Of a stretch of DNA of 5,840 nt, positions 1-5,840 are shown one piece after another. The first letter of the stretch is position 1, and the number at the start of each line of letters is the position of its first letter. A program made the position numbers and the translations under genes. A model generated the notes under the pieces. The model had not been told where the DNA came from. It did no database searches and was given only the letters and a program-made list of their open reading frames with translations. Source of the DNA: Chloroflexota bacterium (GTDB taxonomy: Bacteria; Chloroflexota; Limnocylindria; Limnocylindrales; CSP1-4); assembly GCA_021812735.1 (NCBI GenBank), contig JAKAMV010000660.1, forward strand, positions 1 through 5,840, read 5' to 3'.

Positions 1-469
1 CGAGCGCGGACCGCACGTGTTCGGGCCTGACGTGCTGGCCGTTGATGTCGTTGAGGCGACCGTCCCAGGTCTCGCCCACCACCGGCAGGCTCCAGAAGAC
101 CGTGCCGCCCGGTCGGCCCGCGACCTCTGCCGCGATCAGCGCGTCCCGCACGACGCCCACGCTGTGCGTGTTGGTGATCGCGATGGGGGACGTCAGCTGG
201 CCCGACTCGCGCACCCATTCGAGCCCGGTCAGCTCGCCGTTCCCGTTCAGGCGATGGCAGCCGGCAAAGACGGGCTCCTCTCCGGCGTTGCCCTCGTGCG
301 GGAGGATCACCGTGACCCCCGTCCGGATCGGGCCCCGGCCGACCACGAGCGGGCCGTCGCCGGAGATCAGGGTGGTCATGCCGACGCGAACGCCCGCCAC
401 GTCCGTGATCGCGTTGTGGGGCCCGGGGCTCCAGGATCCGACGACGATGCCCAGGTCACGTGCGCGCAC
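1..469 (-). CDS. P1 family (S58, DmpA/BapA-like) aminopeptidase, N-terminal part, runs off left edge
   Basis: This is the first 156 codons of a peptidase of the DmpA/BapA family, N-terminal nucleophile hydrolases that cleave themselves into alpha and beta subunits and remove N-terminal residues (D-, L- or beta-amino acids, depending on the member) from small peptides. The visible translation begins with RARDLGIVVG and contains the family hallmarks NAITDVAGVRVG (about residues 18-29), GVTVILPHEGNAGEEPVFAG (about 53-72), LTGLEWVRESGQLTSPIAIT (about 81-100) and NTHSVGVVRDALI (about 101-113). It ends inside the alpha-subunit region; the self-cleavage site and catalytic Ser lie beyond position 1, so activity cannot be judged. 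The start is a GTG at 467-469, chosen because a GGGAGGG ribosome binding site sits 7 nt upstream and members commonly start near MRARDLGI. It is transcribed away from the DUF1992 gene. Family assignment is firm; substrate is unknown. Confidence 0.93.
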   Translation of the reverse strand, partial: MRARDLGIVVGSWSPGPHNAITDVAGVRVGMTTLISGDGPLVVGRGPIRTGVTVILPHEGNAGEEPVFAGCHRLNGNGELTGLEWVRESGQLTSPIAITNTHSVGVVRDALIAAEVAGRPGGTVFWSLPVVGETWDGRLNDINGQHVRPEHVRSAL

Positions 470-614
470 GCTCGGACCCTCCCTGCAGCCACGCGACCAC
501 GTCCATGCTCGACATGATGACGCGCGAACCGGCGGTCGACACCGCCGATATCGTTGTCCCCGTGAAGCGACGCTGGATCGCACCCTCGCTCGCAACCGTC
601 GGCCTGGGTGATCC
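470..614. other. Divergent intergenic region between the P1 peptidase and DUF1992 genes
   Basis: These 145 bases separate two divergently oriented genes and must hold the promoters of both, unless either gene is leaderless. An AT-richer spot, GATATCGTTG, near 547-556 is the only place that could contribute a -10-like element, but no convincing -35/-10 pair is visible on either strand. No inverted repeat clear enough to call an operator was seen. Confidence 0.4.
477..483 (-). promoter_or_regulatory. Ribosome binding site of the P1 peptidase gene
   Basis: On the minus strand this reads GGGAGGG and lies 7 nt before the GTG at 467-469. It decides the start: the frame stays open further upstream, but the residues there do not resemble the family and no other start has such a site. 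Confidence 0.7.
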
Positions 615-1145
615 ATGAGCCCGGTACGGCGCGACGCCGACGGGCGGCGCCAGGTGGGCCCGAGCTACGAATCCATCGTGGAACGGCTGATCCGCGAAGC
701 GATGGAGCGCGGCGAGTTCGACGATCTCCCGCATCGGGGAGCGCGGTTGCCCCTGCCGGACGAGAGCGCGGCGGGCGACATGGCCATGGCCTACCACATC
801 CTGCACAACGCGGGGGTCGCCCCGCCCTGGATCGAGGCCGACCGGCGGGCGCGGCAGTTGCTGGACGAGCGCGACGCGCTCCTGCGCGGGGCCCGCGGCG
901 CGTCGCCTGTCGCGCGATCGGTACTGCGACGCCGTTTGGTGGCGCTGGTGGAGCGCGCGAACGCCGCCATCGCCGAGCTGAACGCGGAGGCTCCCACGCC
1001 GCGCCAGCACCGGCGCCCCCTGGTACTTGAACGGGAGCTGGAGGCCCTCGACGACGCGGTCCGGGCCACGGGCGGTCGCGACCCGGGCGACAGCGACCCG
1101 GGCGACAGCGGCCCGGGCGACAGCGACCGGGCCGGGCCGTTGTAG
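615..1145 (+). CDS. DUF1992 / DnaJ homologue subfamily C member 28 (DJC28) domain protein
   Basis: A 176-residue protein with the DUF1992 (DnaJC28 conserved) domain. The signature is at residues 20-50: SIVERLIREAMERGEFDDLP followed by RGARLPLPDE, matching the family pattern of an amphipathic helix then GEFDNLPGKGKPL. A second conserved block, AYHILHNAGVAPPWIE, is at residues 59-74. Residues about 75-150 are charged and probably helical. The C-terminus is an unusual low-complexity tail with three tandem DPGDS-type pentapeptides (residues 156-170). The biochemical role of the domain is not established; it occurs fused to J-domains in some proteins, but no J-domain (HPD motif) is present here. 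There is no signal peptide or membrane segment, so it is probably cytoplasmic. The ATG at 615 has only a weak GGGTGAT site upstream, so the exact start is moderately certain. Nothing nearby suggests a partner. Confidence 0.9.
   Translation: MSPVRRDADGRRQVGPSYESIVERLIREAMERGEFDDLPHRGARLPLPDESAAGDMAMAYHILHNAGVAPPWIEADRRARQLLDERDALLRGARGASPVARSVLRRRLVALVERANAAIAELNAEAPTPRQHRRPLVLERELEALDDAVRATGGRDPGDSDPGDSGPGDSDRAGPL
1080..1124 (+). repeat. Three tandem 15-bp repeats (GACCCGGGCGACAGC) in the DUF1992 gene
   Basis: Units lie at 1080-1094, 1095-1109 and 1110-1124. The first two are identical and the third differs by one base (A to G at its second position). The unit is a multiple of three and sits in frame, encoding DPGDS-DPGDS-GPGDS near the C-terminus. 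This looks like slippage expansion tolerated in a disordered tail. Confidence 0.9.
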
Positions 1146-1233
1146 GATCGGCGACGTGGCGCTCGATCCGAGTCGACGGCGCAGGTTTCGTCTCCCGCTG
1201 ACGTGGCGCCACGACCCGCCGAAGGAGGACCGC

Positions 1234-1305
1234 ATGCGGACCCCATCCCGGCGGGGCGGGTGGCCATCGTCGGGCGATTCTGGCCGATGGTGGACCGGGT
1301 TCTGA
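1234..1305 (+). CDS. Possible 23-residue small ORF with strong ribosome binding site
   Basis: An ATG at 1234 is preceded by AAGGAGG at 1222-1228 with a 5-nt spacer, the best plus-strand ribosome binding site noticed in the window. It opens a 23-codon frame (MRTPSRRGGWPSSGDSGRWW, then TGF) ending in TGA at 1303-1305, 15 nt before the tRNA. The peptide is basic and Trp/Gly-rich with no recognised family. It may be a real small gene, a leader peptide, or the surviving 5' end of a gene lost when the tRNA-side region was rearranged. It is not in frame with, nor similar to, its neighbours. Coding status is uncertain. Confidence 0.25.
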   Translation: MRTPSRRGGWPSSGDSGRWWTGF

Positions 1306-1320
1306 GCACGACTATCGCAC

Positions 1321-1407
1321 GCCGAAGTGGCGGAACAGGCAGACGCGACGGTCTCAAAAACCGTTGAGGGCAACCTCGTCCGGGTTCAAGTCCCGGCTTC
1401 GGCACCA
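1321..1407 (+). tRNA. tRNA-Leu (anticodon CAA)
   Basis: An 87-nt class II tRNA with encoded CCA. The acceptor stem GCCGAAG (1321-1327) pairs perfectly with CTTCGGC (1397-1403), followed by discriminator A (1404) and CCA (1405-1407). The anticodon stem ACGGT (1348-1352) pairs with ACCGT (1360-1364) around the loop CTCAAAA, placing anticodon CAA at 1355-1357, which reads UUG leucine codons. The long variable arm has stem GAGG/CCTC (1366-1369, 1374-1377), as expected for leucine. The T arm is CCGGG-TTCAAGT-CCCGG (1380-1396). All parts look intact. UUG should be a rare codon in a genome this GC-rich. An MBG-protein relic follows almost directly. Confidence 0.97.
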
Positions 1408-1417
1408 CCCCCGCCAC

Positions 1418-1436
1418 CCCCACGGGCCCAGTGGGG
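1418..1436 (+). terminator. Possible hairpin downstream of tRNA-Leu (no U-tract)
   Basis: CCCCAC (1418-1423) pairs perfectly with GTGGGG (1431-1436) around a 7-nt loop, 11 nt after the tRNA CCA end. It lacks a T-run, so it is not a classic rho-independent terminator, and it overlaps the MBG-like relic. It may end or process the tRNA transcript, or be a by-product of the local G/C runs. Confidence 0.25.
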
Positions 1437-1630
1437 ACCCACCCGATCACCTGCTCGGGCCTGACCAGCACGAACTGCGCCATTAGCTGGGTGGCTGGGT
1501 GCTGACGGTGAACAAGGCCTCCTTGACCGTCACGGCGAACAACGTCACCCGCCTGCTCGGCGCTACCACCCCGGCCTTCTCGGTCGCGTACGCGAGCTTT
1601 GTCCTTGGGGAGATCCCCGCCGGGACACCG
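1428..1630 (+). pseudogene. Relic of an MBG-repeat (MBG_2-like) surface/adhesin protein, frameshifted
   Basis: Two adjacent reading frames, read in order, reproduce the junction between two MBG-type beta-sandwich repeats found in large bacterial extracellular proteins. From 1428 to 1499 one frame gives PVGTHPITCSGLTSTNCAIS then WVAG, the end of one repeat. From 1502 to 1630 another frame gives LTVNKASLTVTANNVTRLLG and then ATTPAFSVAYASFVLGE, the start of the next. Aligned to the usual repeat (VAGTLTVNKA), the break is explained by loss of one base in the codon at about 1500-1501. The first frame stops at 1503 and the second has a TAG at 1484 before it and another at 1664. There is no start codon, signal peptide or ribosome binding site. 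Only about one repeat survives, so this is a fragment of a much larger gene, lying directly after the tRNA. Family recognition is by eye from the repeat pattern. Confidence 0.75.
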
Positions 1631-1679
1631 GAACGCTGCAAGAGGCCCGTCCCCTTGGTCGGCTAGGCTTCTCGTCGGC

Positions 1680-2114
1680 ATGCTCCCGCTCTCCGATGCA
1701 CTGCGCCATCCATGGCTCCACAGGTGGGCCCGCCGGTACCTGAACCCCTGGGTGCTGCGCCTCGGGTTGGCCGGAGGCCGCCACTCCCCCATCGGGCTCG
1801 TGCTGCACGTGGGCCGCCGCAGCGGACGCGCCTACGCGACCCCGCTGGCCGTCCATCGCCGCGGTGCGCGGTGCTTCATTCCGCTCACCTACGGGCCCGC
1901 CGCGCGCTGGTGCCTGAACGTGCTGGCGGCCAGAGGGTGCCGGGTCCGTATCCGGGGCCGCGAGTACAGGGGGACCGATCCCCGCGTGGTCGGCCGGGGT
2001 GCGCTGCCGCCACCGCTCCGGGCCGTCTATCGGTGGATCGGGATACGGGAGTTCCTCACCCTCACGCTCGACCCGGGTGATATGTCAGGACCACGACCCC
2101 GGTCGGGAAGGTGA
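1680..2114 (+). CDS. Nitroreductase-fold deazaflavin (F420)-dependent oxidoreductase, Ddn-like (DUF385)
   Basis: A 144-residue protein of the Ddn-like family, small split-barrel enzymes that use reduced coenzyme F420 (some members other flavins) to reduce quinones or nitro compounds. Diagnostic is HVGRRSGRAYATPLAV at residues 43-58, matching the conserved TGRRSGRxRxTPL cofactor-binding segment. It is followed by a strand region (FIPLTYGPAARWCLNVLAAR, residues 66-85) corresponding to the family's W-x-x-N-L-x-A block. The usual hydrophobic end is IREFLTLTL (122-130); the last 14 residues, DPGDMSGPRPRSGR, are an extra tail encoded opposite the end of the DHFR relic. The ATG at 1680 was chosen because homologs begin about there and the frame upstream (back to 1599) crosses the MBG relic. 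No good Shine-Dalgarno site precedes it; a TAGGCT at 1664-1669 could be a -10 box giving an almost leaderless mRNA. The physiological substrate is unknown. F420 use is inferred from the family. Confidence 0.82.
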   Translation: MLPLSDALRHPWLHRWARRYLNPWVLRLGLAGGRHSPIGLVLHVGRRSGRAYATPLAVHRRGARCFIPLTYGPAARWCLNVLAARGCRVRIRGREYRGTDPRVVGRGALPPPLRAVYRWIGIREFLTLTLDPGDMSGPRPRSGR

Positions 2115-2513
2115 CGCTGTCGACCAGAGTCAGGGTGCGCCGGGGGACGCCGGCGAAGAGCCGCCGATGAGGAGATCGCCGCCGTCCTCCGCCCTGAGGC
2201 GACGTACCGCGTCGGCCACCTCGCCGTCGATGATGGTGGCGTTCCACGTGGCGGTCTGCAGGGTGTGCGAGGCGACGTACTTCGGCATGGCGTTCATCTT
2301 CCTGCCAAAGTCGCCGGTGCCTTCCATGGTGGGCCACGCGGCCGCGAAGCCCTCGTAGGTGATGCGGCCGAGGAGGAGCGCCTCGCTCGCGTCGAGCTCA
2401 CGCGCCTTGAAGTCGGCGGCTTCCGGCGACCAGAACGGGAACGACCACTGGCCCGGCTCGTCGATGAACCCATCGAGGGTCAGGTACGTGCTGGCGACGA
2501 CGGTGCGCGGCAT
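2062..2513 (-). pseudogene. Dihydrofolate reductase / RibD-C family protein, broken by internal deletion and frameshift
   Basis: The N-terminal piece (2513 down to about 2160, then a stop at 2130) reads as this family: VASTYLTLDGFIDEPGQWSF (residues 6-25), LLLGRITYEGFAAAWP (46-61), KMNAMPKYVASHTL (72-85) and GGDLLIGGS (111-119). It should continue through the block with the HDLVDE-type motif and GSGKRLF; instead it ends after nine unrelated residues. The missing C-terminus appears in another minus-strand frame from 2163 to 2062: RLFAGVPRRTLTLVDSVTFP and then TGVVVLTYHPGRA. About 30 family residues between the two are absent, so a deletion whose length is not a multiple of three joined GGDLLIGG to RLF at about 2160. 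Start ATG 2511-2513 has GGAGGG at 2520-2525, 6 nt upstream. The 127-residue product would lack part of the fold, so activity is unlikely. The 3' end overlaps the convergent oxidoreductase gene by 53 bp. The family is usually an uncharacterised reductase, not the folate enzyme proper. A sequencing or assembly error could mimic this. Confidence 0.8.
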
Positions 2514-2532
2514 GGGTGGCCCTCCGATCGGA

Positions 2533-2551
2533 TCGTCTATTCGTCGTCTAT
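2533..2551 (-). promoter_or_regulatory. Direct repeat TCGTCTAT x2 at 11-bp spacing, candidate promoter/operator of the DHFR-like gene
   Basis: TCGTCTAT occurs at 2533-2540 and 2544-2551 (ATAGACGA on the minus strand), one helical turn apart. It lies 20-38 bp upstream of the DHFR-like start, in the AT-richest part of the gap. TAGACG could act as a -10 element on the minus strand, or the pair could bind a regulator. No clear -35 is seen. Confidence 0.25.
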
Positions 2552-2624
2552 CTCTCGCGGGGAGCGCCGACGTGGTCGCGAGTCTAGATCCCGGGCAGCG
2601 GGGATCCGGCCACCGGCACCTCGA

Positions 2625-2642
2625 CGACCGACGGCTCGGTCG
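2625..2642 (-). terminator. GC hairpin downstream of fixCX, possible terminator without U-tract
   Basis: CGACCGA (2625-2631) pairs perfectly with TCGGTCG (2636-2642) around a 4-nt loop. It lies about 190 bp after the fixCX stop codon and could end that operon, but no T-run follows on the minus strand, so this is only a candidate. Confidence 0.25.
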
Positions 2643-2828
2643 GTTACGTCACGGTGCCCGTCGCCGGGCGAGCCGGTCCCCGGGGCCGGGCCCAGCATCG
2701 GTGGCCGGACCAGATGTCGAGGCGCCCGCAGGTCCGCGAGGGTGCCGCGCTGCAGATCGCTCTCGCCGCGTAGCAGCGAGTTCCCGGCGAGGACGACTCC
2801 CCGCTCGATCCTGCGCGACCACGGCCGA

Positions 2829-4472
2829 TCAGAGCTGCCGGTATCGCGGCCCCTCACCGCCCTCGGGCGGCGTCCAGCGGATGTTGTCCGCAGGGCATTT
2901 CACGGTGCAGGTCATGCAGTGCAGGCAGTTCGACGGGCTGAGCACGATCTGCTCGCCGTTCCAGCGGTAGACCTCGGCCGGGCAGAAGTGCGTGCAGGCG
3001 GCCTGGTATGCCTCTCCGCACGTCGCGCAGAGCGCCGGATCCACCAGCGTCACGTGGGAGGGCTCGTCCTCCCGGTGCGACGTCCCGGTCAGGGCCAGGA
3101 AGGCCGCGCCGTCGGCATGCCCGGGCGCGCGTCGTGCCAGGCGCGCACGTGGGCGCGTTCCCTGCCGGTCGGGCGGCATGTGCAGGTGCAGGGGCAGGCG
3201 ATCCCCCACCGTGGAGAGAAGCGCTCCCGGCACCATGCCCCACTGGAATCCCTGTCGGTAGCTCCGGGCGCGGTGCAGCTCGGCGAGGATGCCGCGCTCC
3301 TCAAGCAGCCGCGCGTAACGTGCCCCGGCGCCGGCCGCCGGCTCGCCTCCCAGCAGCGTGTCGGCGATTGCGTCTGCCGCGCACATGCCGCTGCGCATGG
3401 CGTAGTGCACCCCTTTGAGCTTCGCCTCGTTCACGAACCCGGCGGCATCGCCGACCACCAGTGCTCCGGGCACGTGCAGCGGCCCCAGCGCGTAGTAGCC
3501 GCCCTCGGGGATCGTTTTGGCCCCGGTGGCCACCAGGCTCGACCCGGCCAGCAGGCTCGCGAGGAACGGATGCGCCAGGTACGCCTCGAACTCGAGGCGC
3601 GGGTCGAGGTCGCCGTAGCGCCAGTCGAGCCCCAGGATGAGCCCTACCGCCGCGGCCTTCGGGCCCATGCTGTAGACGAAGCCGCCTCCGAAGACACCGC
3701 GCGGGGTGGGGAACCCGAGCGTGTGCAGCACCCGGTTGGTCCCGAACGGGTTGGTGCCGGCAAACTGGACCACGGCCTTGACCCCGAGTCCGTAGACCTG
3801 CGGGTCGCGGGCCGCGACGGGACCGCGCTCCGGATCGGCGAGTTGTGAGCCGGGCTGCGAGGCGAGCTGCGAGCCGCGGCCCCGATCCGCCAGCTGCGAG
3901 GAAAGGACGCCGTGCGACCCGTCGGCCAGCACCGTCACGGCCGCCGGCACGTCCTCCCCGGGCAGGTAGTTCGCCCCGGGCCGGCCCTCCGCGTCGAGGC
4001 CGGCGTCGACCAGGCGGACGCCGCGCACCACCGCCGCCTCGACCAGCAGCTCGCGCGCGGCAAACCCGTGGTACACCTCGGTTCCCAGGCGCGCCGCCCG
4101 CTCGCTCAGGAACGCGGCCAGCCGCGAGACCGAGAGCGTCACGTCGCCCGCATGGCGCATCGCGGCGGGGACCAGCGGCGGTGGCAGCCGCACGGCCTGG
4201 CGTTCGGTCAGGATGTACAGGTCGTCGCGCTCGACCGGCGTGACCTGGTCGGCGAACCGGCTCCTGTCGCTCCGCCAGCCGGGCAGGAGCTCGTCCAGGG
4301 CAGCCGGCTCGACGATGGCCCCGGAGAGGTTGTGGTACCCGGGTGCGGCGGCCTTGTCGAGCACCACCACCGAGCACTCCCGCCCGGCCGCCTCCATGCG
4401 CTGCCGCAGCCGGATCGCGGTCGAGAGTCCCGCCGGTCCGGCCCCCACGATCAGTACGTCAATGGGCGGCAT
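2829..4472 (-). CDS. fixCX: FixC-FixX fusion: ETF:quinone oxidoreductase-type flavoprotein with C-terminal ferredoxin domain
   Basis: A 547-residue membrane-associated oxidoreductase that takes electrons from an electron transfer flavoprotein and reduces quinone. Residues 4-20 form the FAD-binding Rossmann motif (IDVLIVGAGPAGLSTAI). NLSGAIVEPAALDELLPGW (48-66), YGLGVK (227-232), GFVYSMGPKAAAVGLILGLDW (264-284), IPEGGYYAL (321-329) and GALVVGDAAGFVN (336-348) all match ETF-QO. The C-terminal 75 residues are FixX-like: C482-x2-C485-x7-C493-x3-C497-P and C516-x2-C519-x2-C522-x3-C526-P. C497, C516, C519 and C522 correspond to the single-cluster ligands of ETF-QO; the other four would bind a second [4Fe-4S] cluster. 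The length is about FixC plus FixX and near bacterial ETF-QO. The start ATG 4470-4472 was chosen over one at 4599-4601 because GGAGGT precedes it by 8 nt and the domain begins there. It overlaps the upstream ETF gene by 14 bp, implying translational coupling. Odd points are an SQLA-repeat insertion at 191-217 and an Arg-rich stretch at 435-448. Confidence 0.92.
   Translation of the reverse strand: MPPIDVLIVGAGPAGLSTAIRLRQRMEAAGRECSVVVLDKAAAPGYHNLSGAIVEPAALDELLPGWRSDRSRFADQVTPVERDDLYILTERQAVRLPPPLVPAAMRHAGDVTLSVSRLAAFLSERAARLGTEVYHGFAARELLVEAAVVRGVRLVDAGLDAEGRPGANYLPGEDVPAAVTVLADGSHGVLSSQLADRGRGSQLASQPGSQLADPERGPVAARDPQVYGLGVKAVVQFAGTNPFGTNRVLHTLGFPTPRGVFGGGFVYSMGPKAAAVGLILGLDWRYGDLDPRLEFEAYLAHPFLASLLAGSSLVATGAKTIPEGGYYALGPLHVPGALVVGDAAGFVNEAKLKGVHYAMRSGMCAADAIADTLLGGEPAAGAGARYARLLEERGILAELHRARSYRQGFQWGMVPGALLSTVGDRLPLHLHMPPDRQGTRPRARLARRAPGHADGAAFLALTGTSHREDEPSHVTLVDPALCATCGEAYQAACTHFCPAEVYRWNGEQIVLSPSNCLHCMTCTVKCPADNIRWTPPEGGEGPRYRQL
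3822..3902 (-). repeat. SQLA-type degenerate repeat inserted in the FixC domain
   Basis: Residues 191-217 of the FixCX protein carry SQLA three times (192-195, 201-204, 209-212), two of them as SQLAD, spaced 9 and 8 residues apart. The DNA shows matching degenerate CAGCTGCGAG / GAGCTGCGAG-like units near 3840-3900. It lies between the NADH/ETF-side strand ending VLSSQLADRG and the conserved DPQVYGLGVK. In relatives this gap is a short helix (SQL-x-x-R), so the copies look like a local expansion. Confidence 0.7.
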
Positions 4473-5840
4473 GTGCCGGGACCTCCGTCGCGCGGATGAG
4501 GGCAGGCAGCACGACGGCGACGTCTCCGACCAGCCCGATGTCCGCGTAGTCGAAGATGCGCGCCCGGGGATCCCGGTTGATGGCGACCACGAGGTCGGCA
4601 TGCTGCATGCCCGAGACGTGCTGGACCGCGCCCGAGATGCCGATCGCGACGTAGAGCCGCGGTGTGACGGTCTGGCCCGTCTGCCCCACCTGGCACTCCC
4701 GGCCCGTGTACCCGTCCTCCACCGCCATGCGCGACGCGCCGATGTCGCTCCGGGCGCCCAGGCGAGCCCCGAGATTGCGAGCCAGGGGCTCCAGCAGCGC
4801 GTGGAACTCGGCCCGCGAGTGCATGCCGCGGCCGCCGGCCACGATGATCTCGGCGTCCCGGATCGAGGACGACGCGGCCGCCGTCTCGACCCCGACGATC
4901 TCCAGCCCGATCGATCCGTCCGGCAGCTCAGGGACGATCCACACGATCTCGCCTCTCCTGGCCGGGTCGCGCGGGGGCAGGCCGAAGACGCCGGGCCGCA
5001 CGGTGGCCATCTGGGTCGGCGAGGAGCGCGTCATGATCGTCGCCATGACGTTGCCGCCCAGGGCCGGGCGTGTCTGCTTGAGGATCGCCACGAGCGACAC
5101 GCTGCCCTTCGCGTAGTCGCCGATCTCGAGCCTCGTGCAGTCGGCGGTGAGGCCGCAGTCCGAGGCATAGGCCACCCGGGGCGCCAGCTCCCGTCCCCAC
5201 GGCGTCGCGCCGAAGAGCATCACCTGCGGGTGGTACCTGCGCACGGCGTCCGCGACGGCCCGGGCGTGAGCGCTGGCGATAGCAGGGGTCAGCAGGGGGT
5301 GTTGCGCCACGTACACCCGGTCCGCCCCGTGTGCGATCAGCTCATCGGCGAGATCGTCCTGCGCTGCGCTCACCTGGCCGGCGCTGGCGAGGTGGGCCGG
5401 CCCGGCACCCGCCAGCACGGCCCCCACCGGTGCGCCCAGCGGCGCCGCGAGCTGCCGTGCCTTGCCCAGCAGCGCGAGGGAGACCGACCGGATCCCTGCC
5501 TCGCCGGGCTCGGCGTAGACCCAGAACTCGCCCTGGTAGGTGGGAGTCTGTCCGGCCAGCGCGTAGGGCGCGTCCGCGTCGGCGGGCGCCTGCCGCTTGC
5601 CGCTGCCGTACCGGGCGTCGACCAGGGCCACCAGCTCGGCCGCGTCGTGCGCCAGGACACAGCTGCGCGCCCTGCCCTCGTTCGGGGAGAACAGCCGATA
5701 GACCTGGGTGCGCGAGCCACGGAGCCCGATGCGTCCGGGGTCCGCCTGCACGGAGGCGGCGCTCCATTCGTGGATCGGCGCACGCTGCGCGGCACGAGCC
5801 CCGTGGAACGACCGGTAGAGCGGCGCGGTGCACGCGGTGA
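4459..5840 (-). CDS. fixAB: Fused electron transfer flavoprotein: EtfB (FixA) C-terminus joined to complete EtfA (FixB), runs off right edge
   Basis: One open frame of 459 visible codons, 5' end outside the window. Counting from the GTG codon at 5749-5751, the 29 residues before it and residues 1-48 are the C-terminal part of EtfB: HEWSAAS, DPGRIGLRGSRTQVYRLFSP and the final helix AAELVALVDARY. A Pro/Ala/Gly linker follows (about 49-73), then a full EtfA begins at GEFWVYAEPGE (74-84). EtfA landmarks are VSLALLGKARQLA (90-102), GRELAPRVA (186-194), GLTADCTRLEI (200-210), RPALGGNVMATI (228-239), QMATVRPGVFGLP (247-259), IGASRMAVEDGY (337-348), GQTGQTVTPRLYVAIGISGA (356-375), and INRDP plus DIGLVGD (391-395, 404-410), the FAD-binding region. 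There is no ATG or GTG start in the linker, so separate translation of EtfA is unlikely. It would carry electrons to FixCX, whose gene overlaps its end by 14 bp. Only the fusion itself is unusual; every EtfA motif is intact. Confidence 0.92.
   Translation of the reverse strand, partial: TACTAPLYRSFHGARAAQRAPIHEWSAASVQADPGRIGLRGSRTQVYRLFSPNEGRARSCVLAHDAAELVALVDARYGSGKRQAPADADAPYALAGQTPTYQGEFWVYAEPGEAGIRSVSLALLGKARQLAAPLGAPVGAVLAGAGPAHLASAGQVSAAQDDLADELIAHGADRVYVAQHPLLTPAIASAHARAVADAVRRYHPQVMLFGATPWGRELAPRVAYASDCGLTADCTRLEIGDYAKGSVSLVAILKQTRPALGGNVMATIMTRSSPTQMATVRPGVFGLPPRDPARRGEIVWIVPELPDGSIGLEIVGVETAAASSSIRDAEIIVAGGRGMHSRAEFHALLEPLARNLGARLGARSDIGASRMAVEDGYTGRECQVGQTGQTVTPRLYVAIGISGAVQHVSGMQHADLVVAINRDPRARIFDYADIGLVGDVAVVLPALIRATEVPAHAAH
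4481..4486 (-). promoter_or_regulatory. Ribosome binding site of fixCX inside the end of fixAB
   Basis: The minus strand reads GGAGGT 8 nt before ATG 4470-4472. It lies within the last codons of the fused ETF gene and sets the fixCX start, supporting coupled translation of the two genes. Confidence 0.75.

Follow-up and report, generated by a model that had tools for sequence, protein, structure and literature searches.

A fused EtfB-EtfA flavoprotein and an eight-cysteine ETF-quinone oxidoreductase form a recurring gene pair in Chloroflexota and other lineages

The window analysed here, a stretch of 5,840 nt from a Chloroflexota bacterium of the order Limnocylindrales (assembly GCA_021812735.1, contig JAKAMV010000660.1, positions 1 to 5,840), carries on its minus strand two overlapping genes, one for a fusion (EtfBA) of EtfB and EtfA, the two parts of an electron-transferring flavoprotein (ETF), and one for a single-chain ETF-quinone oxidoreductase (ETF-QO, here also QO). 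ETF-QO is a long-known enzyme of one chain, and FixABCX needs four chains. We read the pair, tentatively and with a confidence that stays somewhat short of even, as an ETF:quinone oxidoreductase made of two polypeptides and belonging to the group-2 ETF lineage, which would do work like that of FixABCX or EtfABCX with four functions on two chains. Judged from its sequence, it is most likely a two-chain quinone reductase driven by NADH, and perhaps a bifurcating one. Within the open-licence literature in PubMed Central (PMC), we found no description of an EtfBA-QO pair with an eight-cysteine QO, of its spread, or of its shared changes at the flavin adenine dinucleotide (FAD) site. The parts are known; the combination of a fused group-2 EtfBA with an eight-cysteine ETF-QO is what is new within that literature.

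Gene structure and recurrence of the pair

The frame of the fusion is open to the edge of the window, with no stop between its EtfB and EtfA parts, and the QO gene behind it has its best start at ATG 4472 and ends at 2829. The features of the pair are as follows.

4459..5838, minus strand: EtfB-EtfA fusion gene, 3' part (459 residues; 5' end beyond the window; full-length equivalent P0001, 647 residues)
5626..5838, minus strand: C-terminal end of the EtfB domain, including the loop GLRGSRTQV (NCBIfam EtfB match; 93% relative aligned to solved EtfB chains)
5710..5712, minus strand: Arg codon, P0001 residue 231, at the place of Thermotoga maritima EtfA Pro239 beside the bifurcating FAD (alignment; residue roles from PMC10734219)
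4942..5523, minus strand: ETF domain of EtfA, PF01012 (Pfam)
5068..5070, minus strand: conserved Arg codon, P0001 residue 445, in the motif RPALGG, equivalent of T. maritima EtfB Arg140 (alignment)
4603..4863, minus strand: FAD-binding domain of EtfA, PF00766 (Pfam), predicted by homology to bind the electron-transferring FAD
4459..4472, no strand: 14-bp overlap of the two genes (spacing of -14 likewise in loci L001, L002 and L005)
2829..4472, minus strand: single-chain ETF-QO, 547 residues (domains, sequence match, tree, predicted fold)
3510..3794, minus strand: ubiquinone (UQ)-binding domain of ETF-QO, PF21162 (Pfam)
2841..3098, minus strand: iron-sulfur domain PF05187 (Fer4_ETF_QO), with cysteines 482, 485, 493, 497, 516, 519, 522 and 526 (Pfam; alignment)

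The G+C content at the three codon positions (0.74/0.55/0.91 in the EtfB-EtfA frame and 0.76/0.53/0.90 in the QO frame) fits real genes. At E <= 0.001, 6606 of 7999 scored candidates were homologues of the EtfB-EtfA frame and 2515 of 7996 were homologues of the QO frame, so neither frame is a product of chance. An earlier reading, made from the sequence alone, had seen an EtfB C-terminus joined to a full EtfA in one frame and a 14-bp overlap with the next gene, and the open frame at 4459-5838, the domain matches and the overlap at 4459-4472 bear it out. The whole of EtfA lies in the window piece (PF01012 at residues 106-299, PF00766 at residues 326-412). Residues 5-71 match the NCBIfam EtfB model weakly (E 9e-6, far below the cut-off of that model), and the EtfB part was also aligned to solved EtfB chains by way of a full-length relative. 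The frame also proved to hold a full EtfB beyond the window edge, a point that this reading had proposed to test: the database protein P0001 is 647 residues long and its last 459 residues are identical to the window piece, which shows the EtfB half to be complete and rules out a truncated remnant, and the nearest genome contig, L001 (93%), from a Chloroflexi metagenome-assembled genome (MAG), encodes the same full frame. The protein search returned many full-length EtfBA relatives of about 630-670 residues; few of those listed carry an organism name, mostly Chloroflexi or Chloroflexota, with two Limnocylindrales and one Patescibacteria.

A scan of genome contigs gave 199 confirmed relatives, of which the best 80 were kept as loci. 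In all 80, some of them cut at contig ends, one frame runs EtfB into EtfA, and in 74 a QO follows the fusion on the same strand (in L072 at a distance of about 2.2 kb). The six loci without a QO are L003, L007, L040, L047 and L080, which lie at contig ends, and L065, whose genome has a QO domain on another contig. The record titles name Chloroflexi, Planctomycetota, Omnitrophota, Verrucomicrobia/Opitutia, Lentisphaerae, Actinomycetota, Methanosaeta/Methanothrix and a few others. The two-gene order that the sequence-only reading proposed to look for in other genomes is thus present, and its two-chain design is supported by the fusion and a single-chain QO as a recurring pair. Protein distances of EtfBA and QO are strongly correlated (Mantel r 0.956 over 65 loci; none of 2000 permutations as high), of which shared descent alone gives a part. 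In the locus L075, from a MAG titled Deltaproteobacteria, the pair nests with a Sedimentisphaerales locus in both trees, by gene transfer or misbinning. Among 301 Chloroflexota genomes drawn, five (G001, G002, G004, G005 and G061) have a match of at least 66% identity and the next best reaches 40%, so the pair is not general in that phylum.

Lineage of the fusion and identity of its partner

Both halves of EtfBA have bifurcating ETFs as their best solved relatives, closer than canonical ETFs, and bifurcating ETFs are again the best solved relatives of the AlphaFold model (mean predicted local distance difference test score, pLDDT, of 85). In a tree of 52 rows, which held 35 of the 80 loci, picked for spread, and a small reference set, the EtfBA family is one clade (100/100). 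A branch with 98/89 support unites it with the bifurcating ETFs, three other fusions and five rows of FixAB type. Outside this group lie two canonical ETFs and E. coli FixAB, which has a long branch; because the branches of Fix_Ecoli and FixC_Htur are long, their places in the trees are unsure. The bifurcating option in the earlier reading agrees with this result, as the EtfB and EtfA halves fall on the group-2, bifurcating side of the tree.

The residues at the FAD site point the same way. According to PMC10734219, the bifurcating FAD of T. maritima has Arg38, Pro239 and Val242 from one subunit near it, together with Arg140 from the other. Among the loci that show the position, the equivalents of Arg38 (79/79), Val242 (80/80) and Arg140 (79/79) are kept, as is DGDTAQV (80/80), where the two canonical (group 1) references, from which EtfBA also stands apart in the tree, have DDDxNQT. 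Because V[TAS]GMQSVD and GDTAQVPP were the peptides of the genome scan, neither the Met nor the VP of these motifs counts as an independent finding; the changes at Pro239, Phe and Val described below are independent of the scan. In L106 (genome G001) and L107 (genome G004), which belong to genomes that also carry the fusion, a separate EtfB/EtfA without the DGDT and Arg140 motifs adjoins an acyl-CoA dehydrogenase.

The second gene had been taken for a FixC-FixX fusion, and this has to be given up in spite of a cysteine number like that of EtfX. Its product matches pig ETF-QO over the whole length (E 1e-83), compared with E 8e-17 for T. maritima EtfC and E 8e-12 for EtfX, and its single chain combines a FAD, a UQ-binding and a Fer4_ETF_QO domain. 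A tree was built from 45 sequences (34 of the 74 QO loci, picked for spread; the 340-residue fragment FixC_Smel was left out), and a 100/100 branch in it separates five FixC from the ETF-QO, with which the window QO lies. For the AlphaFold model (mean pLDDT 78), the top structural match is pig ETF-QO, with a template-modelling (TM) score of 0.84, and EtfC ranks third, with 0.57. The full-length match, the tree and the fold together make the second gene a single-chain ETF-QO and not a new FixC-FixX fusion.

What sets this ETF-QO apart is its iron-sulfur domain. Its eight cysteines are invariant in an alignment of 26 QO sequences. Of the 67 loci whose sequence extends into the domain, 63 have all eight, or 61 under a stricter pattern; 119 of 120 listed database proteins have them too, the odd one reading as frame-shifted there. 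The four exceptional loci comprise one that is masked and three with Asp for one second-site cysteine; the latter (L018, L021 and L026, from Pirellulales and Lentisphaerae) read NC-x-H-D-G-S-C at the second site. Pig and five proteobacterial ETF-QO have the four-cysteine core only. Thirty planctomycete ETF-QO (L112-L141, from the highest-scoring of 159 matching genomes) all have seven cysteines, three beyond the core, with Asp at the eighth place, which possibly represents a second cluster with an Asp ligand or the remnant of one; no ETF gene was matched in the stretches of 2.4-3.3 kb around them. The single [4Fe-4S] site of mitochondrial ETF-QO is thus not universal in ETF-QO and is not what is found here. 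The full set of eight cysteines, unlike the second site itself, is unique to the EtfBA-QO pair. In the QO tree the eight-cysteine QO form one clade in 12% of bootstraps, and 'fam' needs 2 changes. The FixX proteins of E. coli, S. meliloti and Bradyrhizobium are without part of the eight-cysteine pattern, and here all eight lie within the ETF-QO chain. In the quinone branch of the T. maritima enzyme, EtfX carries two [4Fe-4S] clusters (PMC10734219), and the pattern suggests that the eight cysteines pair into two putative [4Fe-4S] clusters of the ferredoxin type.

Related systems and flanking genes

The pair resembles several known systems and is identical to none of those compared. With T. maritima EtfABCX (7koe) and the FixABCX of diazotrophs it has in common a group-2 EtfB and EtfA, a quinone-reducing flavoprotein partner, the FAD-site ligands R38, DGDTxQV, R140 and V242, and a cysteine number of eight, as in T. 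maritima EtfX. In contrast to those systems it has two chains instead of four, its partner is an ETF-QO apart from the five FixC, and its family has GxxSPTxV, RPxFGG and RxGV in altered form. Similarly, it resembles the ETF-QO of pig (2gmh), proteobacteria and planctomycetes in its single QO chain, in the UQ-binding and Fer4_ETF_QO domains and, for the pig enzyme, in the sequence and fold matches given above, but it has eight cysteines where these have four (pig, proteobacterial) or seven (planctomycete), and it is partnered with a fused group-2 EtfBA. Both halves are like the group-2 EtfAB of the Bcd, Car and Lct complexes (4kpu, 5ol2, 6fah and 7qh2) in sequence and predicted fold, whereas EtfBA is fused in one chain, has an altered loop at the FAD site and has no recurrent acyl-CoA or lactate dehydrogenase neighbour. 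Because the partner is not a FixC and the group-2 motifs are altered, and because the QO departs from the mitochondrial ETF-QO with its one cluster site, we file the pair under neither FixABCX nor ETF-QO without qualification.

Fusions of EtfB and EtfA also occur in archaea (Sulfolobales). Three other Chloroflexota fusions (L092-L094) have the same EtfB-EtfA order in one frame but form a separate clade (100/99), with Lys for Arg140 and DAET for DGDT. No QO was matched in their 1.5-kb flanks, and no ETF partner was present among the ten open reading frames (ORFs) of four wider stretches from this other fusion lineage (L096-L099). An 'Etf dehydrogenase (fixABCX) system', mentioned for a deep-sea Chloroflexi single cell in PMC5736913, could be the present pair under another name.

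The neighbourhoods of the loci yielded 478 ORFs and 14 families present in at least three loci, of which one representative each was scanned; shadow ORFs in DNA of high G+C content may mask some neighbours. No acyl-CoA or lactate dehydrogenase family stands repeatedly beside the fusion among these 14. Three Dehalococcoidia loci (L029, L030 and L046) have divergent genes for a molybdopterin oxidoreductase and a 4Fe-4S protein upstream of the fusion and molybdenum-cofactor genes downstream of it. In ten Planctomycetota loci (L051, L057, L058, L060, L064, L065, L070, L073, L078 and L079), a protein with a B12-binding domain (Pfam match on the L064 representative) lies divergently upstream. The window itself holds four further genes: a peptidase family S58 protein, N-terminal part (PF03576, E 2e-42; 2-616, minus strand, running off the window edge); head to head with it, a protein with the conserved C28 domain of DnaJ homologues (PF09350; 615-1145, plus strand); a protein like deazaflavin (F420)-dependent nitroreductases (1599-2114, plus strand; NCBIfam 47.2 bits against a cut-off of 46.35); and, downstream of the QO gene, a protein with a RibD C-terminal domain (PF01872; 2130-2513, minus strand).

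Proposed working, alternatives and meaning

The electron donor, a stable complex of the two chains, the number of clusters, the type of quinone, the reduction of ferredoxin and the direction of the reaction are what we infer for this pair. EtfBA would hold two FADs, a bifurcating one in the EtfB half and an electron-transferring one in the EtfA half, and the former would most likely be reduced by NADH. One electron would then pass from the FAD of EtfA over two [4Fe-4S] clusters to the FAD of ETF-QO and on to menaquinone, or to methanophenazine in Methanothrix, and the other electron would probably go to ferredoxin. In anaerobes the system could possibly run in reverse.

Thirty host genomes, chosen for diversity and mostly MAGs of untold completeness, bear on the donor. 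The fusion is the only ETF found in six of them (G011, G013, G016, G017, G018 and G020), and six have no acyl-CoA dehydrogenase match (G005, G011, G012, G013, G017 and G020), among them all three Methanothrix (G013, G017 and G020). Where the fusion is the sole ETF found and no acyl-CoA dehydrogenase was matched, as in Methanothrix and G011, a donor other than acyl-CoA, such as NADH, is likely. Matches to COX1 occur in 11 of the 30 hosts; Fix is described in PMC6085437 as the one bifurcating complex that is common in aerobes (53% of Fix homologues). The domain of 2-oxoacid:ferredoxin oxidoreductase (POR) is present in 30/30 hosts, but in 11/14 control genomes as well.

Several results weigh against the preferred reading. 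The Val, Pro and Phe of the group-2 motifs RxGV, GxxSPTxV and RPxFGG are changed in every locus that shows them. By alignment counts, the place of Pro239 is never Pro: 45 of the 80 loci have Arg there, 29 have Lys and 6 have Trp, giving GxxS[R/K/W]TxV in all 80, and in 79/79 loci each RPxFGG reads RPALGG and RxGV reads RxxL. The loop from ADCT to RP ahead of the Arg140 motif has a median of 26 residues (21-26 in 78 sequences) against 18-19 in ten references. Pro is found at the Pro239 place in 10/10 references of the bifurcating type (five solved pairs, three rhizobial or burkholderial FixAB, Sporomusa and the L091 FixAB), and also in the separate ETFs of the hosts G012 and G024. In G001 the separate ETF, without the DGDT and Arg140 motifs, likewise has Arg there. 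This counter-evidence is softened by the proven bifurcating EtfAB of A. fermentans, which has RPAAGG, so that the Phe is not strict, and by the presence of RxxL in two separate ETFs that are group-2-like. The seven cysteines of planctomycete ETF-QO that occur away from the fusion indicate that a second site is no special mark of work like that of FixABCX. Furthermore, 24 of the 30 hosts do have acyl-CoA dehydrogenase matches (10/14 in controls) and 28 have exactly one Fer4_ETF_QO match, so ordinary fatty-acid oxidation may be a further, or even the main, task of the QO, and because the hosts are mostly MAGs of untold completeness the absences among them are weak.

These results leave an appreciable chance to the main rival reading, in which the pair is a plain, non-bifurcating ETF and ETF-QO. 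As in mitochondria, EtfBA or a second ETF would then supply the quinone pool with electrons from dehydrogenases such as those of acyl-CoA, and the changes at the EtfB site would have abolished bifurcation. A partner that is ETF-QO and not FixC would fit this, and so would the FAD-site changes, one of which is common to the separate G001 ETF without bifurcation motifs. So would the genome G001, the host of L001, with two COX1 and four acyl-CoA dehydrogenase matches, a second, separate EtfB/EtfA beside an acyl-CoA dehydrogenase and one Fer4_ETF_QO match. Against such an ordinary route stand the group-2 placement, the retention of DGDTAQV, R38, R140 and V242, the occurrence of the pair in genomes without an acyl-CoA dehydrogenase match, and the 14 recurrent neighbour families, none of which is an acyl-CoA dehydrogenase. 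In Chloroflexota with fatty-acid oxidation a single QO may serve both routes.

The altered FAD loop also leaves room for a non-bifurcating enzyme that is still fed by NADH. The FAD of the EtfB site would take the electrons of NADH and pass both to quinone, because the altered site would no longer make a low-potential semiquinone; we consider such a NADH:quinone oxidoreductase without ferredoxin improbable. In its favour stand the replacement of Pro239 by Arg, Lys or Trp and of Phe by Leu, the longer loop just ahead of the Arg140 motif, and the top NCBIfam match of EtfBA, which is to the model of the acryloyl-CoA reductase EtfA (E 8e-68), though with 229 bits against a cut-off of 600. A precedent is the Pcd-Etf complex of C. 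propionicum, for which PMC5736913 gives no ferredoxin reduction and ascribes this to a 15-residue insertion in the EtfA subunit. On the other hand, the T. maritima variants P239G and V242G kept at least partial bifurcation (PMC10734219). That the EtfB-EtfA join, or the two-domain join in QO, is an assembly artefact or a decayed gene has practically no chance: nothing beyond the cutting of the EtfB half by the window speaks for it, and the relatives of both genes refute it, with an identical full-length protein, the fusion in 80 loci, a QO behind it in 74 and strong conservation.

The most far-reaching version of the preferred reading seems to us rather unlikely as a whole. It would make the pair a two-chain enzyme of wide occurrence, bifurcating or confurcating and composed of EtfBA and an ETF-QO with two clusters, that couples NADH, ferredoxin and quinone or methanophenazine in oxygen-respiring Chloroflexota, in Planctomycetota without oxygen respiration and in Methanothrix. 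The bifurcating FAD would be tuned by the basic residue in place of Pro239, and the eight- and seven-cysteine QO would record how FixC and FixX gave rise to the mitochondrial type of ETF-QO with its four cysteines.

In Methanothrix, the pair would connect NADH or ferredoxin with the membrane carrier in a way of which a single term search of the open-licence PMC literature found no description. The series of ETF-QO with eight, seven and four cysteines makes testable an origin of the mitochondrial type from a FixC-FixX-like ancestor by cluster loss. Because the FAD ligands are kept while the surrounding loop is changed, a two-chain version that occurs in an acetate-using methanogen, in hosts that have cytochrome oxidase and in hosts that lack it would offer a simple way to study what makes an ETF bifurcate.

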